From: Flavobacterium sp. GSB-24
GTDB lineage: Bacteria; Bacteroidota; Bacteroidia; Flavobacteriales; Flavobacteriaceae
Length of the DNA: 64,000 bases
Assembly: GCF_027924665.1 (NCBI RefSeq)
Contig: NZ_AP027043.1
Span: forward strand, 3,410,001 to 3,474,000
Direction of reading: 5' to 3'
The notes beneath the pieces are model-generated. The model saw only the letters and a list, made by a program, of their open reading frames with translations, did no database searches and had not been told where the DNA came from. The position numbers were made by a program, and so were the translations under genes. Below are positions 11,573-32,405 of the stretch, in pieces. How positions within the stretch are numbered: the stretch's first letter is position 1; the number at the start of each line of letters is the position of its first letter.

Positions 11573-13516
11573 ATGAATCTTAAAAATTTAATGTTCGTAT
11601 GTTTAGCGGGTTTCCTTAAACTAAACGCTCAGCCAGCAGTAAAAAGTCCAGACGGAAAACTTGCGGTGTCGATTTCTGTAAATAACGGAATGCCTAAGTA
11701 TAGTGTAACATACAATGAAAAAACATTTATAGAAAAATCTCCATTAGGCTTAAAAACAAATGCGGGGGACTATAGCTCTGGATTAACTTTAGAAAAAAAT
11801 AGCAGCCAAAATAAAATCGACGAATCCTATAAGCTCCGAAACATAAAACAAAGCAGTGTGCATTATAGTGCTAACGAAGCCGTTTTTTCATTCACAAAAG
11901 ATGGCAGATTAGCTTTAGATGTAGTCTTTAGAGTAAGCAACAACAATCTGGCATTTAAGTATAAATTATATCCGCAGAAAGAAACACTTTCCTGTATAGT
12001 TCAAGAAGAAGTTTCAGGATTTTTACTGCCAAAAGGAACCTCGACATTTCTTTGCCCGCAAAGTAATCCAATGACTGGATTTGCCAGAACAGCTCCCAGT
12101 TATGAAACTTCATATACACTAGATGATGTTCTCGGAAAGAATGGCTTGGGAAATGGATATACGTTTCCATGTCTGTTTAAAGTAAATAATGCGGGATGGC
12201 TTTTAATTTCTGAAACAGGTGTAGACAGCGGATATTGTGCAAGTAGATTAATAGGACATGAGAACGGATTATATTCTATTGGATTTCCGATGCCGGGAGA
12301 AAATAACGGAAACGGGACAACAGGACCAGGAATACCGCTTACAGGAGAAACGCCATGGCGTACCATTACAATTGGGGAAACACTTGCTCCGATAGTTGAG
12401 ACCACTATTCCGTTTGATTTGGTTAAGCCAAAATATGAAGCCTCTAAAGAGTATCAGTATACAAAAGGAACTTGGAGCTGGATCATGAAAATGGATAACA
12501 ATACTACTTTTCCTGTACAAAAGCAGTATATTGATTTTAGTGCTTCAATGGGATATGAAACCATTTTAATTGATGCACTTTGGGATACGCAGATTGGTCG
12601 TGATAAAATAGCAGAATTAGCAGCATACGGTAAACAAAAAGGAGTAGGACTCTATTTATGGTATAATTCAAATGGATACTGGAATGATGCTCCTCAAGGC
12701 CCCAAAGGACTAATGGATAATACAGCACTCCGTCGAAAAGAAATGGCATGGATGAAAAGCATCGGAATTAAAGGCATTAAAGTTGACTTTTTTGGAGGCG
12801 ATAAACAGGTGACCATGAAATTGTATGAAGATATTTTGACAGATGCTAATGAATTTGGAATAATGGTAATTTTTCATGGCTGTACTTTAGCTCGAGGCTG
12901 GGAACGCATGTATCCAAATTATGCCTCTAGTGAAGCAGTTTTGGCTAGTGAAAATCTGCATTTTGGACAGCAAAGCTGTGATAATGAAGCTGTAAGTGCA
13001 GCAACACATACTTTTATTAGAAACACTGTAGGAAGTATGGATTTTGGAGGAAGCGCTTTAAATAAATTCTATAATAGTGATAACATTGCCAATAAAGGCT
13101 CCAAAAGAATGACCTCTGATGTATTTGCGTTAGCGACTTCGGTGCTTTTTCAAAGCGGCGTGCAGCATTTTGCCTTAGCACCAAATAATTTATATGATGC
13201 TCCAGACTGGGCTATACAATTTATGAAAGAAGTACCAACAGTATGGGATGAAGTTCGTTTTTTAGAAGGATACCCAGGAAGGTATGTTGTAATGGCCAGA
13301 AGAAAGGGTGCAAAATGGTATATCGCTGGAATTAATGCTGAAAATAAACAGTTAAAGACAAAGATAAAACTAGAAATGCTTAATTCTGGTACGGCAGTAA
13401 ATTACTATGCAGACGATGACCAGTTAAACGGAAAAGTGAGTAAACTGACAATAAGTAAAAACAAAGAAGTTGAAATAAGCATACCTCACAACGGAGGAAT
13501 ATTAATAACAAATTAA
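11573..13516 (+). CDS. GH97 glycosidase, retaining group (second copy)
   Basis: The 647-residue protein has a signal peptide ending KLNAQ and the full GH97 domain set. Asp405 in GIKVDFFGG is the retaining-type nucleophile position and Glu454 in SSEAVLASE the acid/base candidate. It keeps the HGC.LARGWERMYPN segment seen as HGCLVPRGWQRTYPH in the first copy, but most of the chain has diverged, so this is an old paralogue pair rather than a recent duplication. Two different GH97 enzymes in one xylan locus suggest two related alpha-type side-chain linkages. It ends the enzyme arm: a strong hairpin terminator follows and the SusC gene has its own promoter. Confidence 0.87.
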   Translation: MNLKNLMFVCLAGFLKLNAQPAVKSPDGKLAVSISVNNGMPKYSVTYNEKTFIEKSPLGLKTNAGDYSSGLTLEKNSSQNKIDESYKLRNIKQSSVHYSANEAVFSFTKDGRLALDVVFRVSNNNLAFKYKLYPQKETLSCIVQEEVSGFLLPKGTSTFLCPQSNPMTGFARTAPSYETSYTLDDVLGKNGLGNGYTFPCLFKVNNAGWLLISETGVDSGYCASRLIGHENGLYSIGFPMPGENNGNGTTGPGIPLTGETPWRTITIGETLAPIVETTIPFDLVKPKYEASKEYQYTKGTWSWIMKMDNNTTFPVQKQYIDFSASMGYETILIDALWDTQIGRDKIAELAAYGKQKGVGLYLWYNSNGYWNDAPQGPKGLMDNTALRRKEMAWMKSIGIKGIKVDFFGGDKQVTMKLYEDILTDANEFGIMVIFHGCTLARGWERMYPNYASSEAVLASENLHFGQQSCDNEAVSAATHTFIRNTVGSMDFGGSALNKFYNSDNIANKGSKRMTSDVFALATSVLFQSGVQHFALAPNNLYDAPDWAIQFMKEVPTVWDEVRFLEGYPGRYVVMARRKGAKWYIAGINAENKQLKTKIKLEMLNSGTAVNYYADDDQLNGKVSKLTISKNKEVEISIPHNGGILITN

Positions 13517-17212: not shown

Positions 17213-18709
17213 ATGATGAGAAAAATAAAATATATACTTATAGTACTGTCTGGGGTTTTAACCATTACTTCATGTGACACTAGCGAATTAGAATTGAATA
17301 ATCCCAATACTTTATCGCCTGAAACTTTCTTTAAAACCGAAGCACAAGTGCAGTCTGCAGTAAATGCTTCGTATGCAAATCTTCAGACAAGAGGACTCTA
17401 TGGCAGAAATCTTTTCTTCGCGATGGATCTTATGGGGCATGATGCTTTAGGAAATCCACAGTTAGAAGGTAACAAAAAACCTTTCCAGGATTTTTCTTTT
17501 AACGGAGGAAACGATATTATTCAATATTACTGGGAATCTTGTTATATAGGAATATCCAGAGCTAATTTTGTGCTGGATAACGAAGAAAAAATCAATGCAC
17601 TTCCAAATTCTGTTTTATCTCAGGAAAAAAAGAATAAATATTTAGGAGAAGCTCATTTTTTAAGAGCATACTATTATTTTCTATTAGTAAGACGTTTTGG
17701 AGATTTACCAATTTATAAATCAGGTACTATTATTGGAAACGCAAGAAGCCCTAAAGCAGAAGTGTATGCCTTGATTGAAGAAGATCTTGTATTTGCATCG
17801 CAAAATCTTTTACCCAAAGCATCAGAATCAGTAGGAAGGGCTAATAGAGAAGTGGCTTATGCACATTTGGGTAAAGTATTGTTATATCAAAAAAAATACG
17901 ATGAAGCCTTAGCAGCCTTTAATAATGTGACCAGTTACAGCCTCGAAGATAAAGGCAATTTTTACAACAACTTTATGGAAGAAACAGAACATGGTAAAGA
18001 ATCTATTTTTGAAATTGAGTTTGACGAAAAAAATGGAACAGGTGATCAATGGGGAGCTGTTGGTGATAGCGGAGGAACAGGCTTTGATGAGTCAACGCTT
18101 AGAGGTCAGGAATATGGAAATCTTAGCTGGTACAATGTTTATCCGTCAGATAATCTTTTAGATTCATATGAAGCAGGTGATAATCGTTTTGGAGATACTT
18201 TTTATGTGCCAGGTTCCTCTTATTTAAAAGGAACAAAGGTAATGGTAGCAGGTAACTTTACTACCTCTGCAGGTATTAGAAGAGCCGGCTGGAAAAAATA
18301 CCAAAACTATTACAATAGAGAAGATGAAGCAACCCGATCAAGCATTAACTTTAAAGTAATGCGTTATGCAGATGTACTGCTGATGAAAGCCGAATGCGAA
18401 AACCAAAGAAACGGCGGTTCTCAGACAGCTGCAATAGCATACATTAAAGAAGTGCGCGATAGAGCAAATCTGACAACTAATATTGCACCAACAAAAGACG
18501 CTGTTTTTGCAGCAATTGTGCACGAACGTCAGGTAGAATTTGCCGGAGAGCAATCTCGTTTTGATGATATTATAAGATGGGGTATAGCAAGTACTGTATT
18601 ACAAGGAACAGGTTTTACTGCTGGTAAAAGCGAGTTATGGCCAATACCAAACAGAGAAACCTCGTCTAATCCTAAAATAAAACCAAGTGATAATAATCCT
18701 GGTTATTAA
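17213..18709 (+). CDS. SusD/RagB-family surface glycan-binding lipoprotein (PUL 1)
   Basis: The 498-residue lipoprotein has its lipobox Cys at residue 21 (TITSC) followed by acidic residues compatible with surface export. The SusD fold is indicated by the N-terminal NNPNTLSPETFFKTEAQVQSAVNASY, tetratricopeptide-like helices with FLRAYYYFLLVRRFGDLP, and the C-terminal WPIPNRE..SNP..K.NPGY signature. It caps the SusC barrel and delivers glycan to it. It starts 9 bp after SusC, and a palindromic terminator follows. No other surface glycan-binding protein gene is visible in this locus. Confidence 0.95.
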   Translation: MMRKIKYILIVLSGVLTITSCDTSELELNNPNTLSPETFFKTEAQVQSAVNASYANLQTRGLYGRNLFFAMDLMGHDALGNPQLEGNKKPFQDFSFNGGNDIIQYYWESCYIGISRANFVLDNEEKINALPNSVLSQEKKNKYLGEAHFLRAYYYFLLVRRFGDLPIYKSGTIIGNARSPKAEVYALIEEDLVFASQNLLPKASESVGRANREVAYAHLGKVLLYQKKYDEALAAFNNVTSYSLEDKGNFYNNFMEETEHGKESIFEIEFDEKNGTGDQWGAVGDSGGTGFDESTLRGQEYGNLSWYNVYPSDNLLDSYEAGDNRFGDTFYVPGSSYLKGTKVMVAGNFTTSAGIRRAGWKKYQNYYNREDEATRSSINFKVMRYADVLLMKAECENQRNGGSQTAAIAYIKEVRDRANLTTNIAPTKDAVFAAIVHERQVEFAGEQSRFDDIIRWGIASTVLQGTGFTAGKSELWPIPNRETSSNPKIKPSDNNPGY

Positions 18710-18749
18710 GGTTTTAAATTTTGGTTAGTTTAAGTTAAGTTAGTTTTGT

Positions 18750-18783
18750 ATAAACAGCGCATTTACTGCGCTGTTTATTGTTT
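18750..18783 (+). terminator. Rho-independent terminator after SusD
   Basis: A perfect 12-bp stem, ATAAACAGCGCA against TGCGCTGTTTAT, has a five-base loop and is followed by TTGTTT. It ends the SusC/SusD transcript, or attenuates read-through into GH8. Confidence 0.8.
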
Positions 18784-18810
18784 ACGGTTTTCTGATTAGG
18801 AATATATTTA
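18778..18810 (+). promoter_or_regulatory. Weak promoter candidate for GH8-esterase
   Basis: TTG at 18778 and TATATTTA at 18803-18810, 22 bp apart, resemble the Bacteroidota -33/-7 pair with one mismatch in the -7. It lies between the terminator and the GH8 start codon at 18822. Confidence 0.35.
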
Positions 18811-18821
18811 AAAAAATAAAT

Positions 18822-20117
18822 ATGGTTGTATATAAAAAAAACTCAAGCAGGTATGTAATTAAAATTTCGTTTTTTTTAATGATCGTCATCATGACAACAC
18901 CCATTCGAGTTACTGGACAGGAAAAAAAGAAGACGGAAAAAACACAATCCGAAAGACCGCAATATAGAAATCTATTTAAGGAAGCAGGTTACAGCCAAGA
19001 CGAAATAGACAAGAAAGTAGCCAAAGCCTATTATGATATATTCGAAGGGCCAAACAAAGTATATTTTGAAGAAGGAGAAACTTTAGGATATGTTTCTGAT
19101 GTTAAAAATAAAGATGCCCGTACAGAAGGAATGTCATACGGAATGATGGTTGCCGTTCAGCTCAATAAAAAAGATGTTTTTGATCGTTTATGGAGGTGGT
19201 CTGTAAAATACATGCAGCATCAAGAAGGACCAAGAGAAGGATATTTTGCTTGGAGTGTAGATCCAAAGACCAAAAAACAAAATTCTCCCGGCTCTGCCTC
19301 AGACGGGGAATTGTATTTTATAACCAGTCTGCTTTTTGCTTCTAATAAATGGAGTAATGATACAGGAATAAATTACTATAAAGAAGCCAGAAGAATTTTA
19401 GATGCCATGTGGAAAAAAGATGGTACAGCGAATGTTCATAATATTATAAATATTGAGCATAAACAAATTTCCTTTGTGCCAGAAGGAGGAGGTTACAACT
19501 GGACAGACCCTTCTTATCATGTTCCTGCATTTTATGAAATATGGGCATTGTATGCTAAAGACGGTCATGAGCAGTTTTATAAAGAATGCGCCGATGTTTC
19601 GCGTAATTTTTTACATAAAGCCTGTCATCCTGTGACGGGGCTAAATTCAGATTATACAGAATTTAATGGAGAACCGCATCCGACACCTTGGATGCCTCCT
19701 GGATTCCGTTATGATTCTTGGCGAGTTCCTATGAACATTGCCATGGATTATACTTGGTACGGAAAAGATAAAGAATGGCAGGAAGACTATGCGAAGCGTT
19801 TTCAAAATTTTCTTAGATCTAAAGGATTAGACAAGTATGAAGATCAGTTTAATCTTGATGGTTCTACTCCCGATTTTATTCTTCAGGCCGGTCCTGTTAA
19901 AAAACTCAGACATTCAATCGGTTTAGTAGGAACCGCCGCTACAGCATCGTTAGTAAATAAAGATAAAGCAAGCATGGATTTTGTTCACGCTGTCTGGAAT
20001 GCCAAACTTGAACCTTATGAAGACGGTTACTTTGATCCCTATTATGATGGATTAATGTATCTCTTCAGTTTAATGCATCTTAGCGGGAACTACCAGATTA
20101 TAACTCCAAAGAGTTAA
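18822..20117 (+). CDS. GH8 reducing-end xylose-releasing exo-oligoxylanase
   Basis: The 431-residue exported protein resembles GH8 reducing-end exo-oligoxylanases (Rex), which remove xylose from the reducing end of xylo-oligosaccharides with inversion. The general acid is Glu102 in RTEGMSYGMM. Asp161 lies in SASDGELYF, and Asp229 in WTDPSYHVPAFYE is the base candidate typical of the Rex group. The N-terminal hydrophobic segment (residues about 14-30) should be a signal peptide, followed by a Lys/Glu-rich linker. It sits downstream of SusD behind a terminator and pairs with the esterase gene 27 bp further on. Confidence 0.9.
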   Translation: MVVYKKNSSRYVIKISFFLMIVIMTTPIRVTGQEKKKTEKTQSERPQYRNLFKEAGYSQDEIDKKVAKAYYDIFEGPNKVYFEEGETLGYVSDVKNKDARTEGMSYGMMVAVQLNKKDVFDRLWRWSVKYMQHQEGPREGYFAWSVDPKTKKQNSPGSASDGELYFITSLLFASNKWSNDTGINYYKEARRILDAMWKKDGTANVHNIINIEHKQISFVPEGGGYNWTDPSYHVPAFYEIWALYAKDGHEQFYKECADVSRNFLHKACHPVTGLNSDYTEFNGEPHPTPWMPPGFRYDSWRVPMNIAMDYTWYGKDKEWQEDYAKRFQNFLRSKGLDKYEDQFNLDGSTPDFILQAGPVKKLRHSIGLVGTAATASLVNKDKASMDFVHAVWNAKLEPYEDGYFDPYYDGLMYLFSLMHLSGNYQIITPKS

Positions 20118-21266
<1,149 letters not shown>

Positions 21267-22308: not shown

Positions 22309-22384
22309 CTGTCCATTTCACGCCCTAGTTTGTCCGTTTGGGATATTTTCTGATTTTAAAACCAGAACTGCAGCTATACTTTTG
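22309..22384 (+). promoter_or_regulatory. Promoter with tandem AraC-type boxes (copy C)
   Basis: Boxes CTGTCCATTT (22309-22318) and TTGTCCGTTT (22330-22339) are spaced 21 bp start to start. The -7 element TACTTTTG (22377-22384) begins 47 bp after the start of the second box. The same arrangement recurs before the DoxX gene and the cupin gene. It would drive the alpha/beta-hydrolase gene at 22429. Confidence 0.65.
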
Positions 22385-22428
22385 ACTAATAAATTAACTA
22401 ATAGGTAAATGATTAAAACATCAGGATT

Positions 22429-23469
22429 ATGAAAACAATATCAAAAATCACCAACCGTATAACAGCTTTAACTTCTAAGGTATTTTTAATTACTGCTCTT
22501 TTTTTAAGCTTTAATGCTGTCAATGCACAATCAGAAAACCAGAAACCAAATGCAGTAACAATAAGTCCTTCTTTGGGAACACTAAAACAAGTTAATGCTG
22601 GTTTATTAAACGTAGGCTATACTGAAGCTGGACCTTCCAAAGGAACTACTGTAATACTGCTCCACGGCTGGCCTTATGATATTCACAGTTATAAGGAAGT
22701 GGTTCCTATTTTAGCTGCAAAAGGCTATAGAGTAATCACTCCATATTTAAGGGGATCTGGAACTACGACATTCCTTTCGAAAGATACTTTTAGAAACGGA
22801 CAGCAAGCAGCATTAGCAACTGATATTATTGCTTTGATGGATGCGCTTAAAATTGATAAAGCCATTATTGGAGGTTTTGATTGGGGAGCTAGGACAGCGG
22901 TTGTTATGGCGGTACTTTGGCCTGAACGTTTACAAGGATTAGTTTCTGTCAGCGGTTATTTGGTTGTAAATCTTGAAGCTAATTTAAAACCGCTGCCTCC
23001 AAAAGCAGAATTAGGATGGTGGTATCAATATTACTTTGCAACAGAAAGGGGAAAATTAGGATACACTCAAAATACCTACGAGTTTAATAAACAAATCTGG
23101 CAGATCGCCTCTCCATTATGGAAGTTCGATAAAGCGACTTACGATCAAACGGCGCAGTCTTTTGACAATCCGGACCACGTAGCAATCGTTATTCATAATT
23201 ACAGATGGAGACAATCACTTGAAGCGGGAGAATCTAAATACGATAGTTTAGAAAAACGTTTAGCAGCAAGACCTGCAATTAAAGTGCCTACTATTACAAT
23301 AGGAAGCGATTTTGACGGTGCTTTCGCCGATGGAAAAGCGTACGCAGACAAATTCAAAGGAAAATATGAACACAGAATCCTCAAAGGCATCGGACATAAT
23401 GTTCCTCAAGAAGATCCACAGGCATTTGCAAAAGCAATTATAGACGTCGATAATTTAAGTAAAAAATAA
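22429..23469 (+). CDS. Exported alpha/beta-hydrolase of the epoxide hydrolase/dehalogenase type
   Basis: The 346-residue protein has a long signal peptide ending NAVNAQS. The oxyanion motif HGWP is followed by a nucleophile elbow GGFDWG with Asp151 rather than Ser. An aspartate nucleophile is the mark of epoxide hydrolases and haloalkane dehalogenases. The catalytic His is in GIGHNVPQE near the C-terminus. Export from the cytoplasm is unusual for classical epoxide hydrolases. It is first in a run with Ohr and a DUF1223 protein, which suggests a detoxification or oxidative-stress setting. The natural substrate is unknown. Confidence 0.82.
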   Translation: MKTISKITNRITALTSKVFLITALFLSFNAVNAQSENQKPNAVTISPSLGTLKQVNAGLLNVGYTEAGPSKGTTVILLHGWPYDIHSYKEVVPILAAKGYRVITPYLRGSGTTTFLSKDTFRNGQQAALATDIIALMDALKIDKAIIGGFDWGARTAVVMAVLWPERLQGLVSVSGYLVVNLEANLKPLPPKAELGWWYQYYFATERGKLGYTQNTYEFNKQIWQIASPLWKFDKATYDQTAQSFDNPDHVAIVIHNYRWRQSLEAGESKYDSLEKRLAARPAIKVPTITIGSDFDGAFADGKAYADKFKGKYEHRILKGIGHNVPQEDPQAFAKAIIDVDNLSKK

Positions 23470-23529
23470 ATAAAGTAAAAAGCAAGCACAACACACAATT
23501 AACATTTCACAACACACAATTAAAAAATT

Positions 23530-23940
23530 ATGGAAACAAAAATTTTATACACAGGCAGGACACACACGACTGGCGGCCGCGAAGGAGCATCACAAAGTTC
23601 AGATGAACAATTGAATATTAAACTTAGTTCTCCAGGTTCTTCACGTTCTGGGACAAATCCGGAACAACTTTTGGCGGCAGGCTGGTCAGCATGTTTTATT
23701 GGTGCAATGGGAATTGCCGCCTCAAAGTTAAATATTAAACTTCCGTCGGATACTTCGGTAGATGCTGAAGTAGACTTGTGCGTGACAGAAGGTGCATATT
23801 CTCTTCAGGCAAGATTGAATATTAGTCTGCCAGGTCTAGATCCTCACACAGCAAGAAAAGTAGCCGATGAAGCACATCAGACCTGTCCTTACTCTAAAGC
23901 AGTAAGAGGAAATATTAATGTTGAAATTAATATCCTTTAA
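23530..23940 (+). CDS. ohr: Organic hydroperoxide resistance protein, Ohr/OsmC family
   Basis: The 136-residue protein is a full-length Ohr: a dimeric cytoplasmic thiol peroxidase that reduces organic hydroperoxides with a pair of cysteines. The peroxidatic Cys55 lies in WSACFIGA and the resolving Cys119 in HQTCPYSKA; a GGREG loop near the N-terminus is also typical. It follows the exported hydrolase by 60 bp and precedes the DUF1223 gene by 54 bp, with no terminator between, so the three genes may share the promoter at 22309-22384. Confidence 0.93.
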   Translation: METKILYTGRTHTTGGREGASQSSDEQLNIKLSSPGSSRSGTNPEQLLAAGWSACFIGAMGIAASKLNIKLPSDTSVDAEVDLCVTEGAYSLQARLNISLPGLDPHTARKVADEAHQTCPYSKAVRGNINVEINIL

Positions 23941-23994
23941 ACATTTAAAATCAAGAGTCTCTTCGAATGAGGCTTATTATAGTCAATTTACATC

Positions 23995-24765
23995 ATGAAA
24001 AAGATACAATTATTACCAGCTGTTTTCATCACATTGATGCTTTTAATAGGAGTGACTGTTTTAGGGCAAAATCCAGATAAAACAGCAGAGAAAGGTTTTG
24101 CTTTATTAGAATTATACACTTCTGAAGGCTGCTCAAGCTGTCCGCCTGCAGATGAACTGATGGGAAGAATCCAAAATGAATATAAAAACCATGAGGTTTA
24201 TATTTTGGCTTATCATGTCGATTATTGGGACAGACAAGGATGGAAAGATGTCTTTAGCAATTCAGCTTATACCAAAAGGCAGTACGATTATGCAAAATTT
24301 CTGGGAAAAGAACCAATTTATACACCACAGCTGGTTGTAAACGGAAAAACTGATTATATTGCTTCGCAGGAAACTACTGTTAGAAATGGAATCAAGTCTG
24401 CACTTTCAAAACCTGCTGCTGCCAAATTATTTCTCGAAGGCACTCAGGCCAATAATAATCTTAAAGTAAATTACAATATAGAAGGCGTTTTTAAAAACAG
24501 CAGCTTGTTACTTGCAATTGTTCAGAAAACAGCTAAAAGCAATGTAAAAAGAGGAGAGAATGCTAACCGCATTCTATCGCATTATCAAATTGTTCGTCAT
24601 TTACAGTCGTCAGCTTTAAAAGATAAAAAAGGAATAGTATGGATTCATCTGCCAAAAAAATTTAATACAAAAGATTTTGAAGTGATTGGTTTTATTCAGG
24701 ACAATAATACAGGAAGTGTTATGGGAGCATCACGAGCTGTGTTACAACAATCTCCGATTTTATGA
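23995..24765 (+). CDS. Exported DUF1223 thioredoxin-like protein
   Basis: The 256-residue protein has a signal peptide ending VLGQ and a thioredoxin-like N-terminal domain with a CxxC motif, Cys46-SS-Cys49, in EGCSSCPPAD. The DUF1223 marks YHVDYWDRQGWKD and YTPQLVVNG follow. The C-terminal half is a beta-rich domain. Members of this family are predicted periplasmic redox proteins with no settled function. It is placed after Ohr, consistent with thiol chemistry under stress. Its stop codon overlaps the start of a 48-residue reading frame in ATGA. Confidence 0.85.
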   Translation: MKKIQLLPAVFITLMLLIGVTVLGQNPDKTAEKGFALLELYTSEGCSSCPPADELMGRIQNEYKNHEVYILAYHVDYWDRQGWKDVFSNSAYTKRQYDYAKFLGKEPIYTPQLVVNGKTDYIASQETTVRNGIKSALSKPAAAKLFLEGTQANNNLKVNYNIEGVFKNSSLLLAIVQKTAKSNVKRGENANRILSHYQIVRHLQSSALKDKKGIVWIHLPKKFNTKDFEVIGFIQDNNTGSVMGASRAVLQQSPIL

Positions 24766-24908
24766 AAACAGTTTTTTTAAGCTTATCCTGTTGCAGTAAA
24801 ATGCCGGAAGCAAAACGTACCAAAAGTTTTAAGCGTAATAAAAGTGATCTTATTATAAAAGAAAATATCATGTTGTTAATGCAGGAGAATAAGGCACTTT
24901 GGCTTTGA
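24762..24908 (+). CDS. Small protein, 48 residues, overlapping the DUF1223 gene
   Basis: The frame begins MKTVFLSLSCCSK, at an ATG that overlaps the upstream TGA as ATGA, the usual sign of translational coupling. It continues with a Lys/Arg-rich middle and a helical, hydrophobic C-terminus ending KALWL. Its stop lies 21 bp before a strong terminator, so it fits wholly inside the DUF1223 transcript. The start resembles a truncated lipoprotein signal (LSCC). No family is recognised, and it may be a remnant of a longer gene. Confidence 0.4.
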   Translation: MKTVFLSLSCCSKMPEAKRTKSFKRNKSDLIIKENIMLLMQENKALWL

Positions 24909-24929
24909 AATTTGAACTTACTAAAGATA

Positions 24930-24964
24930 AAATCGGAACAGAAATATTTTGTTCCGATTTTTTT
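24930..24964 (+). terminator. Rho-independent terminator after ohr-DUF1223-small ORF
   Basis: A perfect 11-bp stem, AAATCGGAACA against TGTTCCGATTT with a nine-base loop, is followed by further T. It shows that the kinase gene downstream does not start before this point. Confidence 0.85.
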
Positions 24965-24993
24965 AGGGATTAAAAAATACTTTCAAAATATCC

Positions 24994-25001
24994 TATCTTT
25001 G
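24994..25001 (+). promoter_or_regulatory. -7 element of the LytS-type kinase gene
   Basis: TATCTTTG matches TAnnTTTG and lies 33 bp before the ATG at 25035. Together with the terminator just upstream it decides the start codon of the kinase. Confidence 0.55.
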
Positions 25002-25034
25002 ACAAAGCGAGATCTAAAAACACATAAAAAATAT

Positions 25035-26051
25035 ATGGAAAAAGTAAAAAACTTTCACGTTTCCCGAAAGGTGATTTGGGGAAGTTCTATAGCATTGGCG
25101 GTTCTTGCTTCGATACCAAAGTTATTTGACGCTGGTTCAACTCCTGGAGATATTGTCATCAATTCTTCGATTACCTTAATGTTCTCTATATTTATTTGGT
25201 ATTATAATATTTACAGCCTTCCAAAGTTCTCGTCGCAGCGTACCAATAAAAGTTTGTTTAACTGGAAACTTTTACTAAGTGTGATATTGGGGATTCTAAT
25301 TATGGTCATTCTGGTAATTGGGCATCAGGAACTTTTTCAGATTTCTAAAATGGATGCTCCAATCATGTTTGAATTGCGGGGCGTATTAATTAATCTGATT
25401 GTTTATATGTTTCTGCATCTGCTTTTTCAAAACTATCAGACCCAGAAGATGGGACTGGAATTAGAACGCACGCATGCTGTTAATCTAGGAGCGCAGTACG
25501 AATTACTGAAACAGCAGGTAAATCCCCATTTTTTATTTAATAGCCTCAATACGCTGAAATCTATGGTAGAAATTCAGGATCCGCAGAGTGCTGACTTTAT
25601 TTTAAAATTATCTGATTTTTACCGTTTTACACTCGAAAGCCGAAAGTTAGATTTAATACCCTTAAAAGAAGAACTTCAAATTTTAGATTCTTATGTGTTT
25701 CTGCTCAAAGCGCGTTTTGAAGATGGATTCGTTCTGATAAATGAAGTGGATCAAAAACAATACGAGTCTGTAGTTCCCCCTTTTACTGTTCAGTTATTAA
25801 TAGAAAACTGCATCAAACATAACGTGGTTTCCCTTGAAAAACCATTGCGAATCAAGTTATACTCAGAGGACGATTTTTTAGTTATTGAAAATCCAATACA
25901 GCTCAAAAGAGGTGTTTTGTCAACAGGTGTTGGTCTGGATAACATCAATAATCGACTTATGCATTTAGTTCATAAGGAAATTCAAATTGATAAAACCGAA
26001 ACTATATTTAAAGTAAAAATACCAATGATCTATGACTATCATAATAATTGA
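25035..26051 (+). CDS. LytS-type sensor histidine kinase
   Basis: From the ATG at 25035 the protein has 338 residues. The frame is open back to 24912, but that stretch contains a terminator and the -7 element, so the shorter start is preferred. Four predicted membrane helices (about residues 12-125) precede a His_kinase domain with the phosphorylated His165 in QQVNPHFLFNSLN and an ATPase region with LLIENCIKHN. There is no large periplasmic sensor domain. The partner LytTR regulator overlaps by 20 bp, so the pair is translationally coupled. The signal sensed is unknown. Confidence 0.9.
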   Translation: MEKVKNFHVSRKVIWGSSIALAVLASIPKLFDAGSTPGDIVINSSITLMFSIFIWYYNIYSLPKFSSQRTNKSLFNWKLLLSVILGILIMVILVIGHQELFQISKMDAPIMFELRGVLINLIVYMFLHLLFQNYQTQKMGLELERTHAVNLGAQYELLKQQVNPHFLFNSLNTLKSMVEIQDPQSADFILKLSDFYRFTLESRKLDLIPLKEELQILDSYVFLLKARFEDGFVLINEVDQKQYESVVPPFTVQLLIENCIKHNVVSLEKPLRIKLYSEDDFLVIENPIQLKRGVLSTGVGLDNINNRLMHLVHKEIQIDKTETIFKVKIPMIYDYHNN

Positions 26052-26799
26052 AGATGAGGTAAAAACAGCCAAAGCGCTTGGGCAGCTTATTCTGAGCATC
26101 AGACCTGATACTCAAATTTTGTCGTATATACAGAGCATAGATGGTGCCGTGAGTTATCTGTCAGAAAATGATCAGCCAGATCTTATTTTCATGGATATTC
26201 AGCTGGCAGATGGTCTGTGTTTTGAAATTTTCAAAAATGTAGAGGTTGTATCACCAGTAATATTCAGCACCGCATTTGATGACTATGCAATTGAGGCATT
26301 TAAGTCAAACGGAATTGACTACGTATTGAAACCATTTTCAAGAGAAAGTATTGCACAGGCTATTAAGAAAGCAGCAGAACTGAAGAATTTCTTCCAAAGA
26401 AATAAAAAGATGATACCAGATTTCGAGTATTTATTGACACGAACTGGCGAGAATAAAGGGAAAAGCAGTTTTTTGGTTTTTAAAAATAATAAATACCAAA
26501 CAGTTTTAACCGAGAATATTGCTTTGTTTTATATTAAAAATGAAACTCCAACCATCATGTGTTTTGATAAAACTGAATATCAAATTACACAATCATTAGA
26601 TGAGGTTCATAAGCTGTTATCGCCCATACAATTCTTCAGGATCAACAGGCAGTATTTGGTGAATTTTGCAGCAATTAGAGAGGCAGAACATTATTTCTCT
26701 CGTAAGTTAATTATCAAATTAACCATTCCAACAGAAGAAAAATTGTTGGTAGGAAAAGAGAAAGCAACCGCCTTTTTGAACTGGCTGGAAAATAGGTAA
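26032..26799 (+). CDS. LytTR-family response regulator
   Basis: The 255-residue protein has a receiver domain with phospho-acceptor Asp55 in LIFMDIQLADG and the conserved Lys-Pro in YVLKPF. A C-terminal LytTR DNA-binding domain (about 155-255) includes FFRINRQYLVNFAAI. It overlaps the kinase gene by 20 bp. Its target promoters cannot be told from the window. A palindromic repeat element separates it from the convergent AraC gene. Confidence 0.93.
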   Translation: MTIIIIEDEVKTAKALGQLILSIRPDTQILSYIQSIDGAVSYLSENDQPDLIFMDIQLADGLCFEIFKNVEVVSPVIFSTAFDDYAIEAFKSNGIDYVLKPFSRESIAQAIKKAAELKNFFQRNKKMIPDFEYLLTRTGENKGKSSFLVFKNNKYQTVLTENIALFYIKNETPTIMCFDKTEYQITQSLDEVHKLLSPIQFFRINRQYLVNFAAIREAEHYFSRKLIIKLTIPTEEKLLVGKEKATAFLNWLENR

Positions 26800-26814
26800 A
26801 GATTAGTTTTTTTG

Positions 26815-26985
26815 TTTGATGTTTCATGTTTCATGTTTTGAAACTTCGGGATTAAGTTTCAAGTTTCAGTCCCGAAACCTCTGGCTCAGGTTGCCAAACG
26901 GGCAAAAAGAAAGATTATATAGATATCTGGACGACATGCCGTATAAACCAGAACTTTAGACATGAAACATGAAACCTGAAACAAA
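26815..26985. repeat. Long-range palindromic intergenic repeat element
   Basis: The outer arms GTTTCATGTTTCATG (from 26821) and CATGAAACATGAAAC (from 26961) are a perfect 15-bp inverted match, extended imperfectly through flanking T and A runs. An inner pair, TTCGGGA and TCCCGAA, is nested near the left arm. It lies between two convergent genes and may act as a two-way terminator or be a non-autonomous mobile repeat. Confidence 0.6.
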
Positions 26986-26991
26986 AAAAAA

Positions 26992-27807
26992 TTAAAAGAC
27001 CTTCGAAGGAGACAATCCATATTGTTTCTTAAAGGCAAATGAAAAATGGGACAGGTCTTCAAAACCTACTTCAAGATAGACTTCAGTTGGGGTTTTTCCT
27101 TTTTCTTTTATCAGATAATAAGCCTGCTGTAATCTTTTTTGTAATAACCAACGGCTTGGCGAAACTTCAAAAATACGCTGAAAGTCACGTTTAAAAGTGG
27201 CCAGGCTTCTACCAGTGAGGTAGGCAAAACGGTCTAACTGCACATTAAAATGAAAATTCTTTTTCATGAAAGCTTCCAAATCAATTTTCCCCGGCTCATT
27301 AAAATCAAATAAAGTATCTTTGAGTTCGGGTTTACATTGCAATAAAATGGTAATAGCTTCATTTACTTTTAAAGTTTGAAGTTCTTCTGTAATTAATTGA
27401 TCTTCGTTGATATAAGGAATCAAAGATCCCATTAAACTTTTAAGCAGTGGAGTTTCTTCCAATTGAAAAACAGTTTCTGTTTCAGGACTTTTAATTAAAC
27501 TGGTCTTTTGATTGTGTTTTATTGAGAAATCACGCAATGCTTCCTGATTCAAATAAATTGAAATGGATTGAAATGCAGCATTAGGATCAGGCTGTTTATT
27601 GAATTTTATAAGCTGATTCCTTTTGATAAATCGAAAATCACCCGGTTTGAAAATATATTCTCTGATGCCGTTGTTTAAAGTAAGTATTCCTGAAATCTGA
27701 AAACTTAAAACATGTTCTGCAGCAAATTGTTCACCTTCGCGATTTTGGGTATAATAGCACGAATAAGCAATTGCTGGTATTTTCTGATTTATTTTTGAAT
27801 CGTTCAT
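26992..27807 (-). CDS. AraC-family transcriptional regulator
   Basis: The 271-residue protein has an N-terminal cupin-like sensing domain (about 20-130) and a C-terminal double helix-turn-helix (about 170-271). The domain is full length: first helix pair around LDRFAYLTGRSLATFKRDFQ and second around PTEVYLEVGFEDLSHFSFAFKKQYGLSPS. It lies 63 bp downstream of the SDR gene on the same strand and is probably co-transcribed with it. Tandem repeats before the SDR gene are a plausible binding site, giving autoregulation. The inducer is unknown. Confidence 0.92.
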   Translation of the reverse strand: MNDSKINQKIPAIAYSCYYTQNREGEQFAAEHVLSFQISGILTLNNGIREYIFKPGDFRFIKRNQLIKFNKQPDPNAAFQSISIYLNQEALRDFSIKHNQKTSLIKSPETETVFQLEETPLLKSLMGSLIPYINEDQLITEELQTLKVNEAITILLQCKPELKDTLFDFNEPGKIDLEAFMKKNFHFNVQLDRFAYLTGRSLATFKRDFQRIFEVSPSRWLLQKRLQQAYYLIKEKGKTPTEVYLEVGFEDLSHFSFAFKKQYGLSPSKVF

Positions 27808-27870
27808 ATTACAAATTTATAAAAAATGGTCAGCAATATTTAGTACTGACCATTACAGAATGTATTTAAA

Positions 27871-28758
27871 TTATTCTTTTTTAGTATTATTGGTATACCA
27901 TTTTCCTTGTGCGGTATCAAAAAAGCTTCCTGCTTCATCATGATCTGTTGATATACTAACATTCATCCAATTTTCCATTTCTTCTGTTCGCTTTTGGTCA
28001 GCATTTTTTAATATACCAATTGCTTCACTACCTAGTACCAAGTGTACAGGAGGGTTTGGATGAGACGCTAAATCCACCATCACTTTGGCTGCTTTTTCGG
28101 GATCACCAACAGCAACAAATTGTCCTCCTTTGAAAAAATCAGTACGTTGTTTTACCATTTCGTAGCCTTCTATTTCAGTTGCGTAAGACATAGAAGCGCC
28201 AGCCCAATCGGTACGGAAACCGCCTGGTTCGACACTAGTTACCAATATTCCTAACGAAGAAACTTCTTTGGCCAAAGCTTCGGTAAAGCCGCTTAGACCA
28301 AATTTTGCCGCCTGATACATCGTTAGACCTGGATTACCAACGCGTCCGCCAATAGAACTGATTTGTAAAATCCTTCCTGACCCCTGTTTGCGCATATAAG
28401 GAAGGACGGCACGCGTAATCTCAATTGGGGCATATAAATTAGTTTCTAACTGACTGCGGACCTGCTCACTGGTGTAAGCTTCGGCAGCCCCGATAATTCC
28501 GAATCCTGCATTGTTTACCAAGACGTCAATTCTTCCAAAATGTTCTGCAGCCGTTTTAACCGCACTATACACTTGTTCATAGTTAGTAACATCTAAGGCT
28601 AGCGGAAAGATTTGATCTTTGTAAAGAGCCTTCAAATCATTTAACTGATCGATATCGCGGGCCGTTGCCACAACTTTATCACCGCTTTTTAAAACTGCTT
28701 CTGTAAGATTACGTCCTAATCCTCTTGAGCTTCCTGTAATAAACCATATTTTATTCAT
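27871..28758 (-). CDS. Short-chain dehydrogenase/reductase
   Basis: The 295-residue protein is a classical-type SDR with the cofactor motif TGSSRGLG (residues 8-15), NNAG at 82-85, catalytic Ser134/135 and Tyr148-x3-Lys152 in MYQAAK. Arg12 after the glycine motif suggests NADPH preference. The C-terminus is longer than in core SDRs, as in the group annotated as oxidoreductases of unknown substrate. It is the first gene of a probable two-gene unit with the AraC regulator. Its promoter carries a pair of 16-bp direct repeats. Confidence 0.93.
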   Translation of the reverse strand: MNKIWFITGSSRGLGRNLTEAVLKSGDKVVATARDIDQLNDLKALYKDQIFPLALDVTNYEQVYSAVKTAAEHFGRIDVLVNNAGFGIIGAAEAYTSEQVRSQLETNLYAPIEITRAVLPYMRKQGSGRILQISSIGGRVGNPGLTMYQAAKFGLSGFTEALAKEVSSLGILVTSVEPGGFRTDWAGASMSYATEIEGYEMVKQRTDFFKGGQFVAVGDPEKAAKVMVDLASHPNPPVHLVLGSEAIGILKNADQKRTEEMENWMNVSISTDHDEAGSFFDTAQGKWYTNNTKKE

Positions 28759-28783
28759 TGTAATTGTATTTAAATGTTCAGTA

Positions 28784-28851
28784 CAAAATTACGGCAGAAG
28801 CAGGGATGAGTATTTTGTTAGAAAGCTCAAATTTATTTGTTAGAAAGCTCA
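28784..28851 (-). promoter_or_regulatory. SDR-AraC promoter with 16-bp direct repeats
   Basis: On the plus strand TTTGTTAGAAAGCTCA occurs at 28814-28829 and again at 28836-28851, a 22-bp period close to two helical turns. On the minus strand the -7 element TAATTTTG lies at 28791-28784. Tandem direct repeats upstream of -35 are typical of AraC-family activator sites. Confidence 0.6.
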
Positions 28852-28865
28852 TGATTCTATAACGA

Positions 28866-28891
28866 AAAAGCCTGAGATTATCTCAGGCTTT
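28866..28891 (-). terminator. Terminator of the DoxX gene
   Basis: An 11-bp stem, AAAGCCTGAGA against TCTCAGGCTTT with a three-base loop, is followed on the minus strand by further T. It lies 23 bp after the DoxX stop codon. Confidence 0.8.
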
Positions 28892-28913
28892 ACTATTCCA
28901 ATAAATAATAAAT

Positions 28914-29309
28914 CTATTCAGTTTTATGGGTAATGTAGTGAACAGTGTATAATTTTCTAAACATTAAATAAGTTATGCTAACCATTACAAAAGCAATAAC
29001 AGCGTCAGTTACTGCAGAAAAGCCTAGTACTGCGAGTTTTGAAAAGAACGCAAAAGTGATATCAAAGAAAATACCCGCAAAGACCCATTCTTTCAACCGC
29101 AGTAACTTATTTGGAATTAATAACACGATAACTCCTGCGGCTTTAAACACACCAAGCAGGTAGATGAAATGTTCTGGATATCCTAATTGCTGGGTAATTC
29201 CCCAAACAATAGGATTTGTAGTAAGTTCGAAAAAACCGCTGGCTCCAAACCATAAAGAAGTTAAGATAACACCTGTCCAGTAAATAATTTTTGTTGTTTT
29301 TGCATTCAT
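28914..29309 (-). CDS. DoxX-like membrane protein
   Basis: The 131-residue protein has four predicted membrane helices and the DoxX-like pattern FGASGFFELTTNP..WGITQQLGYPEHFIYLLGVFK near the start. DoxX-like proteins are small inner-membrane proteins, some associated with redox stress; the function here is not known. The gene has a dedicated promoter carrying the same tandem boxes as the cupin and exported hydrolase genes, and its own terminator, so it is a single-gene unit. Confidence 0.85.
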   Translation of the reverse strand: MNAKTTKIIYWTGVILTSLWFGASGFFELTTNPIVWGITQQLGYPEHFIYLLGVFKAAGVIVLLIPNKLLRLKEWVFAGIFFDITFAFFSKLAVLGFSAVTDAVIAFVMVSITYLMFRKLYTVHYITHKTE

Positions 29310-29339
29310 GATTTTAAAATTTTAAGCTGTTAAACAGGG

Positions 29340-29415
29340 CAAATTTGCATCAGAACACTCTCATTAGATAATCATAAGTAATTGAAGTGGACAATTTCGA
29401 TCTTTAAATAGACAA
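29340..29415 (-). promoter_or_regulatory. Promoter with tandem AraC-type boxes (copy B)
   Basis: Reading the minus strand, TTGTCTATTT (29415-29406) and TTGTCCACTT (29394-29385) are 21 bp apart start to start. A -7-like CAAATTTG (29347-29340, one mismatch to TAnnTTTG) begins 47 bp after the second box start. The geometry is identical to copies A and C. Confidence 0.62.
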
Positions 29416-29480
29416 TTTGGAGGCTAATTTTATTTAAAGCTTTACAATTTGATCGAAATAGTCAGCATTGCTCTTTAATT

Positions 29481-30437
29481 TTATTTGATTTTTTGGAACG
29501 ATTTTGGCTTGGTCCCAATATGTTCCTCAAAAACCTTGGCAAAGTGACTTAAATTAGAAAATCCCATCTTAAAGCCAACCTCTGACACAGTCATTTTATT
29601 TTCTTTTAGTAATCATGCTGCCTCTTTCATTCGGAATTTTTGGTAATAGCTAAACAAACTGTCCCCAAAAATTTGTTTAAATAGTCTTTTAAACTTTGAT
29701 TCGCTCATTCCTACTTCTGAAGCCAGTTGTTTTATAACGGGAGGCGCAGCAATGTTGTTCAAGATTGTATCTCGCACTTTATAAATTTTTTGAACATCTA
29801 TTTGATTTAGTGCATGTGTAGTTGGATTTTCTCTTTTAAAAAGTTCTTTTAAAGTCAGACAGATTAATTCCTCGGCTTTAATTTTAAAAAAGAAATCATT
29901 GAGGGAAGCTGGAATATCAGCCTGAATAATTTCCATAGCCACCTGCTCAATTTTTGGCGAAAGCAGCTCTTCAAATAAGATCGACTGTTCGCTGGTAATA
30001 ATATTTCTGAAAATTTCATTGTCAATATTCACTCCTAGAGTTTTGGCTAATTTATCGGAATCGATTCCAATAAAAATAGAGTTGAATTTAGTTCTACCCG
30101 GATAGAATGTTTCAATATTAAGTTTTCCCTTAAAAATCTGAATTGAAGGAAGATTTCCTGAATATTTGTTTTTTGAATCGGCATCTGGAAAAATATTATT
30201 AAAAGAAAATAGTATTCTATTCAGTGTATTTTGACCTCCTAGTCTTTTCGCAAGCACATTGTCATTAAACTCATAAAAACTTACAAGCATATTTATGGAA
30301 TTGTCTAATCTAAATCCTCTTAAATAGCCTTTCCCTTTATTGTCGGGTATTACTAATATTCCATTTTTTACCTCTGTACCTAATAAATCCGCAAAACCCG
30401 CTAAAAAACCGAATTCCTCCTTTAAATGTAATTTCAT
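29481..30437 (-). pseudogene. AraC-family regulator broken by an in-frame TGA
   Basis: The intact frame encodes 274 residues and stops at TGA (29615-29613) just after KFRMKEAA, inside the AraC DNA-binding domain. Translation of the same frame beyond that stop gives 43 more residues, beginning LLKENKMTVSEVGFKMGFSNLSHFA when read in two parts, and ends at TAA (29483-29481). This is exactly the missing second helix-turn-helix and would restore a normal length near 318. A single base change therefore removed half of the DNA-binding domain. The N-terminal part resembles other AraC_N sensing domains. It is divergent from the amidohydrolase gene. Read-through or a truncated functional product cannot be excluded. 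Confidence 0.85.
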
Positions 30438-30453
30438 TATAATGACCTTTTAG

Positions 30454-30508
30454 AGCTATTATTGTGTCAAATGTAGCTATTTTAATCCTTATTGACTAGA
30501 TAACTTTG
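30454..30508 (+). promoter_or_regulatory. Amidohydrolase promoter with AGCTATT direct repeat
   Basis: AGCTATT at 30454-30460 and 30475-30481 (21-bp period) precede the -7 element TAACTTTG at 30501-30508. The period fits an AraC-type site, and a divergent AraC gene begins at 30437. Confidence 0.45.
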
Positions 30509-30535
30509 CCTAAAAATTAATTTAAATAATTCAAA

Positions 30536-31834
30536 ATGACTACTATTAAAACTAAAGCCATCAGCAATGTAAATGTGTTTGATGGCAAGAATGTAATTGG
30601 TATAAAAACAGTTGTCTTTAGTGACGGTGTAATTACTTCCATTCTAAATGAATTACCAGAAGACATAAGTGAAGTTATTGACGGATCAGGCTGTACTCTG
30701 CTGCCTGGTTTAATAGATGCCCATGTGCATACCTCCGTAGAATTCTTAAAAGATGCATTAAAATTCGGTATCACTACCGAATTAGAAATGATGGGAGGAT
30801 TTACCAGTAAAGGACGTGAAACCCAATTAAAAGGAGTTACAGGTGCTGCCGATGTGCGTTCTGCCGGTATGGGTCTAACAGCTCCCGGCGGTCATCCAGA
30901 CGAGCTTATTCCTAAAGGTGATGGTATTCCGGAATTCGTGTTAAAAGAAATGGAGAAAATGAGTGAAGAAGAAAAGGCCATTTTTTTAGCTGCTCACCAA
31001 GCTCAAAAGGAAGAAGAAGAAATAGGTGCCGATGTTACCTCAATTAGCGGAGCAATAGATTTTGTTCATCGTCAGGTAAATAATGGTGCAGATTATTTTA
31101 AAATAATGATTGAGGAAGGAACTGTAATGAATGCACCGGGTTTACCTGTCATTGAAACTCCGGTATTAAAAGCAGCAGTTGATGAAGCTCATAAATTAGA
31201 TAAGATTGCAATAGCCCACGTTTTAACGGCAGAAGCGGCCAAAACAGCGGTCGAAATTGGTGTCGACGGCTTGGCACATCTATTTATTGACAGACCAGAT
31301 TGGACCAAAGAACTCATTGAAGCTATTGCGGGCAAGGGAATTTTCGTAACTCCTTGTCTGGTATTAAATTCATCGATTATAGGTAATTCTGCCTGCCATG
31401 TTGCGCATGATGAAAGAGTTGATAAAAAATTAAATGAAGACTGGAAAATGACCATGTGTTCTTGTTTCAATACTTTTCCCGAAGGCAATATGAAAGATAA
31501 CTTTGACAACGTGAGGGATTTACGAGACGCAGGAGTAGATATACTTGTTGGAACAGATGTATCTGTACCGATGCCCCATTTGGGCGGACTTGCACATGGT
31601 GTGAGTGTTCATCATGAAATGCAGCTGTTAGTAGAAGCGGGATTAAGCCCAATTGAGGCATTAAGAGCAGCCACATCAGTACCATCTAAAAGATTTAACT
31701 TATTAGACAGAGGATCAATTGCTGAGGGATTGAGAGCAGATTTGCTTTTAGTTAAAGGTGATCCTACTATTAATATTTCTGATTCTCTATCTATAGTGGG
31801 AATATGGAAGGAAGGTGAGTCTTATCACAGCTAA
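30536..31834 (+). CDS. Imidazolonepropionase-like amidohydrolase
   Basis: The 432-residue cytoplasmic protein belongs to the metal-dependent amidohydrolase superfamily. His63-x-His65 in LIDAHVHT binds metal, the barrel carries FKIMIEEG (Lys near the metal site), H in IAHVLTAEA and HLF, and the C-terminal Asp in ILVGTDVS. It ends with the small beta domain (GSIAEGLRADLLLVKGDP) typical of the group. Relatives include imidazolonepropionases and prolidase-like enzymes, but without histidine-degradation genes nearby the substrate stays open. It is transcribed away from the broken AraC gene. Confidence 0.85.
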   Translation: MTTIKTKAISNVNVFDGKNVIGIKTVVFSDGVITSILNELPEDISEVIDGSGCTLLPGLIDAHVHTSVEFLKDALKFGITTELEMMGGFTSKGRETQLKGVTGAADVRSAGMGLTAPGGHPDELIPKGDGIPEFVLKEMEKMSEEEKAIFLAAHQAQKEEEEIGADVTSISGAIDFVHRQVNNGADYFKIMIEEGTVMNAPGLPVIETPVLKAAVDEAHKLDKIAIAHVLTAEAAKTAVEIGVDGLAHLFIDRPDWTKELIEAIAGKGIFVTPCLVLNSSIIGNSACHVAHDERVDKKLNEDWKMTMCSCFNTFPEGNMKDNFDNVRDLRDAGVDILVGTDVSVPMPHLGGLAHGVSVHHEMQLLVEAGLSPIEALRAATSVPSKRFNLLDRGSIAEGLRADLLLVKGDPTINISDSLSIVGIWKEGESYHS

Positions 31835-31876
31835 ATCGACAAAGTTTTATAATCCATAATAATCATAACTCCACTT

Positions 31877-31952
31877 TTGTCCACTTCATTTCTCACTTTG
31901 TCCATTTGAGGTATATTATCATTTCAATGCCAGTAAAGCCTTGGTACTTTTG
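31877..31952 (+). promoter_or_regulatory. Promoter with tandem AraC-type boxes (copy A)
   Basis: TTGTCCACTT (31877-31886) and TTGTCCATTT (31898-31907) are 21 bp apart. TACTTTTG (31945-31952) starts 47 bp after the second box start. It drives the cupin gene at 31998. It is the best-conserved of the three copies. Confidence 0.68.
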
Positions 31953-31997: not shown

Positions 31998-32405
31998 ATG
32001 AAAACTTTAAATTTTGCATCAACTACAGTTTCTGCCCTTAGCCTTTTAGCATTGATTATTACCAATACTGTTTCTGCCCAGCAATCAGGAATAAAACGTA
32101 CTGATTTGCAGCGTTACGATCTTAGTGTACCGGGATACGAAACGGTTCAGGCACGCATCGATTTTGATGCTCATACTGCTTTTGGAAAACATTCTCACCC
32201 CGGAGAGGAAGTTATTTATGTTCTTGATGGCGTATTGGAATATGAAGTCGAAGGTCAGTCTCCTGTTACTTTAAAGGCCGGAGAAGTACTTTTTATCCCT
32301 GCTGGCGTAGTTCACTCTGCAAGAAATAACAGTCATGCAAAAGCTTCGGAACTGGCAACATATATAGTGGAAAAAGGAAAACCTGTCTTGGTAATGAAAA
32401 AGTAA
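31998..32405 (+). CDS. Exported cupin-domain protein
   Basis: The 135-residue protein has a signal peptide ending TVSAQ and a single conserved cupin barrel. Metal ligands are visible: His65 and His67 in FGKHSHPGEE with the following Glu, and a later His in GVVHSARN. Small cupins of this kind include oxygenases and sugar-binding or isomerase-like proteins, so no reaction can be assigned. It is under the tandem-box promoter that also drives the exported hydrolase and DoxX genes. Confidence 0.85.
   Translation: MKTLNFASTTVSALSLLALIITNTVSAQQSGIKRTDLQRYDLSVPGYETVQARIDFDAHTAFGKHSHPGEEVIYVLDGVLEYEVEGQSPVTLKAGEVLFIPAGVVHSARNNSHAKASELATYIVEKGKPVLVMKK

Follow-up and report, generated by a model that had tools for sequence, protein, structure and literature searches.

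Tandem promoter boxes of a putative Flavobacterium detoxification gene block as probable operators of the adjacent LytTR regulator

Results

The subject of this study is a 64,000-nucleotide stretch of the Flavobacterium sp. GSB-24 genome (RefSeq assembly GCF_027924665.1, contig NZ_AP027043.1, positions 3,410,001 to 3,474,000, forward strand), here called the window, in which three promoters share paired boxes of the form TTGTCCAYTT. An earlier note on this DNA had read them as a small regulon with one promoter architecture under AraC-family control. The regulon and its architecture are supported by the analysis below, whereas control by an AraC-family protein is not, as judged from orthologue searches and a locus scan. 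Instead, the box pairs are very probably operators of the LytTR response regulator encoded in the same block, through which it would activate detoxification promoters.

The block begins with EH1 (22429..23469, plus strand; PF00561), an alpha/beta hydrolase predicted from its N-terminus to be exported. We keep the term epoxide-hydrolase-like from the earlier note; the best NCBIfam match of EH1 is a haloalkane dehalogenase model, below cut-off. On the same strand lie ohr (23530..23940), encoding an Ohr/OsmC family peroxiredoxin (TIGR03561 above cut-off, PF02566), a DUF1223 gene (23995..24765; PF06764), a gene for a LytS-type membrane histidine kinase of 338 aa, HisK (25035..26051; PF06580, with a conserved NPHFLFN box), and the LytTR regulator gene (26032..26799), whose product scores above the cut-offs of PF00072 and PF04397 and is the putative box binder on the ground of co-occurrence. 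AraC_A (26992..27807), an AraC-family gene, lies between the box pairs, as does AraC_B (29613..30437, minus strand), which is interrupted and whose frame continues to 29481. The genes of a DoxX-like membrane protein (28914..29309, minus strand; PF13564) and of an exported cupin (31998..32405, plus strand; PF07883) complete the set.

Since most HisK orthologues are 338-339 aa long, we placed the HisK start at the ATG at 25035; the open reading frame is listed from a TTG at 24912. HisK ends at 26051 and LytTR starts at 26032, so that a PF06580 gene overlaps a gene with receiver and LytTR domains, and several HisK homologues carry the name LytT family sensor kinase. The phosphate-accepting histidine of HisK (H165) is invariant across 14 kinases, as are D55 and K100 across 12 regulators. 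The regulator sequence FFRINRQ, in which F201, R203, N205, R206 and Q207 are invariant in 12 sequences, agrees with the FhRh(H/N)R-type LytTR core motif given in an excerpt of PMC4227749. A PDB sequence search with the regulator gave 62 matches, and none of the best 60 had its best stretch in the LytTR domain. The predicted HisK structure, of middling quality (mean predicted local distance difference test score 77, 14 sequences), has four N-terminal helices and no separate sensor domain; only about three of these helices pass a simple hydropathy scan, and no sensor domain was matched in HisK by a Pfam profile search.

The three box pairs lie where the earlier note had placed them, each with a period of 21 bp. 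On the plus strand, the EH1 promoter has CTGTCCATTT (22309..22318) followed by TTGTCCGTTT (22330..22339), and the cupin promoter TTGTCCACTT (31877..31886) followed by TTGTCCATTT (31898..31907). On the minus strand, the boxes of the doxX promoter start at 29415 and 29394 (TTGTCTATTT, 29406..29415; TTGTCCACTT, 29385..29394). A -7 element starts exactly 47 bp after the start of the second box in every case, also as claimed. It is TACTTTTG at EH1 (22377..22384, plus) and at the cupin gene (31945..31952, plus), an exact match to the TAnnTTTG found at -7 in the Bacteroidota primary sigma promoter. At doxX the -7-like element is CAAATTTG (29340..29347, minus), one position off; the majority of orthologous doxX promoters read CANNTTTG. 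The pair can also be written TCCAYTTCA-N12-TCCAYTTCA, a 9-12-9 form in which the TCC of the second repeat lies 44 bp from the -7 element. As the Bacteroidota -7 box covers -12 to -5 according to an excerpt of PMC9723704, the pair would be centred near -62, and transcription is predicted to begin about 5 bp beyond the -7 element.

We asked whether these sites stand out in their own genome. For the hexamer pair TTGTCC-N15-TTGTCC with up to two mismatches, the window contains nine matches against 4.28 expected, a number reached in 2 of 100 shuffles. Over the whole genome (5.35 Mb), the same pair with up to one mismatch gives 47 matches and its reversed pattern 51, and we rejected it as a genome-wide signal. 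The full boxes, TTGTCCAYTT-N11-TTGTCCAYTT with up to three mismatches, match ten times in the genome and 18 times in the reversed control, so that this count by itself is background. The window sites, with 0, 1 and 2 mismatches, are at the top of that list of ten, tied at two mismatches by a fourth pair, C1:4505790 (minus strand). The fourth pair gives no match at up to three mismatches once a -7 element is demanded at 47 bp; lacking this element and having a SusC-like gene downstream (31% to the window open reading frame at 14195), it was taken as chance. The earlier note had seen its proposal endangered if the pair were common at random positions or absent from orthologous promoters. The former is true of the short hexamer pair but not of the complete architecture of boxes and -7 element, and, as the relatives show, the latter does not hold for the complete architecture.

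In a genus sample of 150 genomes, our own included, the boxes with the -7 element at 47 bp and up to two mismatches matched 29 times in 17 genomes; the reversed control gave none. Sixteen of the 17 regions fetched around these strict matches show one gene block, comprising EH1, usually the cupin and/or an EHN epoxide hydrolase, ohr, DUF1223, HisK, LytTR and doxX. The remaining one (L075) is a second locus of genome G136 and resembles the amidohydrolase-cupin part of the window, the G136 block itself being in L076. One architecture thus recurs at the same spacing before the same genes (EH1 with ohr and DUF1223, doxX, cupin), the recurrence that the earlier note had named as support. A looser rule, allowing up to 4-5 mismatches in the pair, was applied to 79 named loci around LytTR relatives and yielded 220 sites in 78 of them: 70 before doxX, 69 before EH1, 37 before cupin, 31 before EHN, four before a nitrilase (just below the Nit6803 cut-off), three before ohr types and six others. 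Among these six, three precede a small exported gene in front of HisK, one an EHN gene and one DUF1223, and one is weak (Olivibacter). All 77 loci whose LytTR is at least 83% identical have at least one site under this rule. The cluster is also present in a locus of F. johnsoniae CI04 (L156). In G108 (L225), weaker pairs precede two additional EHN genes outside the cluster; they differ from the loose pattern at 3 positions (10523, minus) and 4 positions (12196, plus), again with the -7 element at 47 bp.

When no spacing was preset (78 named loci and the window, -7 offsets 15-89), 201 box pairs fell at period 21, and 194 of the 195 matches to the -7 element lay at 47 bp, with one elsewhere. The boxes are conserved and the spacer between them less so, and the 21/47 geometry stays fixed in about 200 promoters, which belong to several types of gene. 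Secondary peaks at period 56 (33 pairs) and period 51 (20 pairs) were read as coding sequence, on the basis of six printed examples that each repeat one gene-like stretch. The Bacteroidota primary sigma promoter also has a TTG near -33, and this is mostly missing: among 207 sites in the four main gene groups, 47 have a TTG 19-28 bp before the -7 element (28/69 for EH1, 6/37 for cupin, 3/31 for EHN, 10/70 for doxX). Since the -7 element is present and the TTG mostly is not, these promoters would need an activator.

Relatives of the LytTR regulator (E<=1e-60) occur in 26 of the 150 genomes, 24 of them with at least 83% identity, and all 17 strict box genomes fall among these 24. A hypergeometric test for 17 box genomes within 26 LytTR genomes, which ignores phylogeny, gives 2.9e-16. 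With up to three mismatches, the pattern is found in 25 of the 26 LytTR-positive genomes, with 84 matches against 11 in the reversed control; 75 of the 84 are no more than about 11 kb away from LytTR. In the 124 LytTR-negative genomes, 19 match (22 matches), which is the background level as the reversed control gives 28. We viewed five of these 22, from G057, G055, G078 and, one of two, G016. The 21-bp TTGTC-/TTGTT-type repeats in G078 and G016 (L223, about 10050; L224, about 9230) were rejected as not promoter-like.

Outside the genus sample the system is sparse. LytTR (1e-60) was found in two of 299 genomes of a family sample, both Flavobacterium, and LytTR (1e-75) in three Flavobacterium and two genomes of one other genus among 395 genomes of a class sample. 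These two class relatives belong to another order (LytTR 58 and 60%) and have a doxX-EH1-ohr run with a four-mismatch pair and an exact -7 element in front; the reversed control gave none. In G802, a Haem_bd/cytochrome P460 gene is preceded by a second pair, with two mismatches and a -7 element that deviates at one position. A Pedobacter polaris record (91%) contains the cluster with two sites, which suggests transfer between orders, or else a contaminated record.

Box pairs were also found at LytTR genes of other kinds. In G055 (L222, 10320, minus), a one-mismatch pair immediately follows a paralogous HisK-LytTR (38%), and the gene behind it encodes an outer-membrane efflux protein (PF02321). 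In G102 (L227, 10440, plus), a pair outside the cluster precedes an outer-membrane barrel gene and then a HisK-LytTR paralogue (40%), where it may serve autoregulation. These two pairs provide a link between the box and LytTR proteins that does not depend on the detoxification genes. Within the block, the pair before a small exported gene (134 aa) just in front of HisK (L169, 8066; L210, 8045; L215, 1633; plus strand) makes this gene a predicted further member of the regulon, and feedback on HisK by read-through from its promoter is possible.

Among the neighbouring genes, a single-domain response regulator (PF00072; 21548-21928, plus) lies directly upstream of the EH1 promoter. Farther upstream (17213-21266, plus) there may be a polysaccharide utilisation locus, as suggested by genes for a SusD-like protein (assigned by eye), a GH8 glycosidase and an esterase.

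Discussion

The box pairs agree in form and position with the operators of LytTR regulators, which we describe here from excerpts of the cited papers. In LytTR sites, 11-13 nt separate two repeats that are each 9-11 nt long (PMC4847170), and the 201 pairs at period 21 have this form whether written TTGTCCAYTT-N11 or TCCAYTTCA-N12; a streptococcal example is ACCACTTAT-12 bp-ACCGCTTAT (PMC6193735). The repeats of AgrA of Staphylococcus aureus, also a LytTR regulator acting from direct repeats, are centred about -60 (PMC4227749), close to the -62 obtained here with an inferred start, just upstream of the core promoter. AgrA differs in signal, box sequence and promoter class, and its core motif reads FFRCHNS where the Flavobacterium regulator has FFRINRQ (PMC4227749). 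YpdA/YpdB of Escherichia coli likewise combines a kinase with a LytTR regulator, and the printed YpdB oligonucleotide has repeats GGCATTTCAT with 11 nt between them, that is 10 + 11 and the same 21-bp period (PMC4847170). That system responds to pyruvate and uses another box sequence, whereas the Flavobacterium system has many targets in one cluster and a kinase without a matched sensor domain.

A Bacteroides LytTR operon has TCCGGTATTCA-11 bp-ACCGGAAATCA, followed after 11 bp by TGTA-19 bp-TATCTTTG (PMC6193735). In such operons, which resemble a LytTR regulatory system (LRS), the repeat pair thus also lies upstream of a -7 element, TATCTTTG, and the second repeat starts 45 bp from it, against 44 here. 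They encode a regulator and a membrane protein, are presumed to be autoregulatory and have a 22-bp period (PMC6193735); the Flavobacterium block encodes a kinase and a receiver. We rejected an LRS proper, which has a membrane inhibitor instead of a kinase, as a kinase is present and no site lies directly before HisK in the 74 of 79 loci checked.

From these comparisons a mechanism can be proposed. The membrane kinase would respond to a membrane-linked signal by phosphorylating Asp55 of the LytTR regulator, which would load the regulator onto TCCAYTTCA-N12-TCCAYTTCA, centred about 62 bp before the transcription start. Two adjacent regulator molecules would occupy each pair and, placed directly upstream of RNA polymerase, activate the promoter. 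The output would be epoxide-hydrolase-like enzymes, Ohr/OsmC peroxiredoxins, DUF1223, DoxX and cupins, with a Nit6803-like nitrilase in some relatives. Gene content alone (Ohr, EHN epoxide hydrolases, nitrilase) suggests that the regulon serves peroxide or electrophile detoxification.

Several observations weigh against assigning the boxes to this regulator. Among the 220 loose-scan sites, 52 have 4-5 mismatches, and the reversed-box control of the geometry test also gives 17 pairs at period 21. EH1 is present in exactly the 24 of 150 genomes with a LytTR of at least 83%, G094 (LytTR 57%, three sites in its region, no EH1 match) being the sole exception; since boxes, regulator and genes all travel together, co-occurrence alone cannot separate them. 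G057 has a one-mismatch doxX-type pair (L221, about 10241, minus), but LytTR is not matched there at 1e-60; with no gene behind the promoter and the cluster absent, this is apparently the scar of a deletion. No site was found at G134 (LytTR 45%), L218 (39%) or L234 (53%), and the match in Olivibacter (L216, LytTR 54%) is weak and overlaps coding sequence, for which reason we set it aside. Autoregulation, common in the LytTR family, is not evident, since no box pair lies directly before HisK in the 74 loci checked of the 79. It may also be that further LytTR regulators recognise these boxes. The wider AraC_A family, finally, accompanies the sites in most genomes, a point taken up below.

It is unlikely that the regulator acts on the boxes as a repressor, or in both ways, and not as an activator. 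The centre of the pair lies upstream of the polymerase site rather than within it, and the scarcity of TTG 19-28 bp before the -7 element suits activation.

That a different LytTR protein is the main binder, or that several share the boxes, we consider quite improbable. The two paralogous HisK-LytTR loci of G055 and G102 do carry the same pair at the same -7 distance, and some loci have a LytTR paralogue of 33-35% nearby. Nevertheless, the conserved neighbour of the sites is the cluster's own LytTR, the 75 of 84 looser-pattern matches mentioned above being in its cluster.

An AraC-family protein, be it AraC_A, AraC_B or a member of the wider AraC_A family, would be an equally improbable binder. 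Like the boxes, AraC-type sites often consist of direct repeats with a spacing of about 21 bp, and AraC_A and AraC_B both sit between the window sites. The wider AraC_A family (at least 57%), moreover, is found in 23 of the 24 genomes with a LytTR of at least 83%, all 17 strict box genomes included, and the two class relatives that have sites carry it too (63-64%). An AraC_A relative (59%) also occurs in G057, where a site persists in the absence of LytTR. This family is unlinked, however, lying outside the block in all but four of the 23, and the block that carries the sites has no conserved AraC-family gene: AraC_A (>70%) is in 17 of the 79 LytTR loci and AraC_B in one. Close orthologues are few, at 4 of 150 genomes for AraC_A (80-100%) and 2 of 150 for AraC_B (95-100%), our own included in both counts. 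G013 has LytTR and sites yet no AraC_A relative at 1e-20, G094 has one of only 42%, and conversely G078, G083 and G111 have AraC_A relatives at 57-59% and no site at up to two mismatches. Neither G055, with its pair beside a LytTR paralogue, nor G134 has an AraC_A relative at 1e-20. In the window AraC_B is cut while the boxes are intact: an in-frame stop (29613-29615) inside the helix-turn-helix region, after 274 codons, leaves 36 of the 80 HTH_18 profile positions. Longer copies of AraC_B exist in Root935 (L140, 98.4% identical over the region) and G136 (L075). In the Root935 locus (11838-12724, minus) the block's SDR gene is broken into two frames that overlap.

Presence in genomes separates LytTR from AraC_A weakly, so that the choice between them depends on location within the block, on the loci of the LytTR paralogues and on the form of the operator. 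We prefer LytTR because it is encoded in the block, belongs to a family known for paired repeats of matching length, spacing and position, and is present where AraC_A is absent (G013).

Chance, or common descent of promoter copies without a regulator, is virtually negligible: the hexamer pair alone is not above background and many of the compared promoters are orthologues, but conserved boxes around a less conserved spacer, the fixed geometry before several gene types, the strict reversed control of zero and the persistence of sites at 57-60% regulator identity all speak against it.

Altogether, the boxes, regulator and targets describe a LytTR two-component regulon of known type. This particular regulon is apparently undescribed: in the literature searched, by titles and the starts of abstracts and with few subscription journals covered, we found no description of it, nor of any Flavobacterium LytTR regulon. 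Tentatively, it could be a self-contained, movable detoxification island: the LytS/LytTR pair would move across Bacteroidota orders as one unit with an operator code of its own and a rigid promoter geometry, and variants of the code would stand beside paralogous LytTR systems. If so, the operators of the phylum's many orphan LytTR regulators would be readable directly from sequence. LytTR regulators seem common in these genomes, and here sequence alone yields regulator, operator, promoter geometry and target genes together, as predictions that can be tested. If the assignment to the adjacent regulator is correct, a membrane kinase would be linked to organic peroxide and epoxide detoxification in Flavobacterium.

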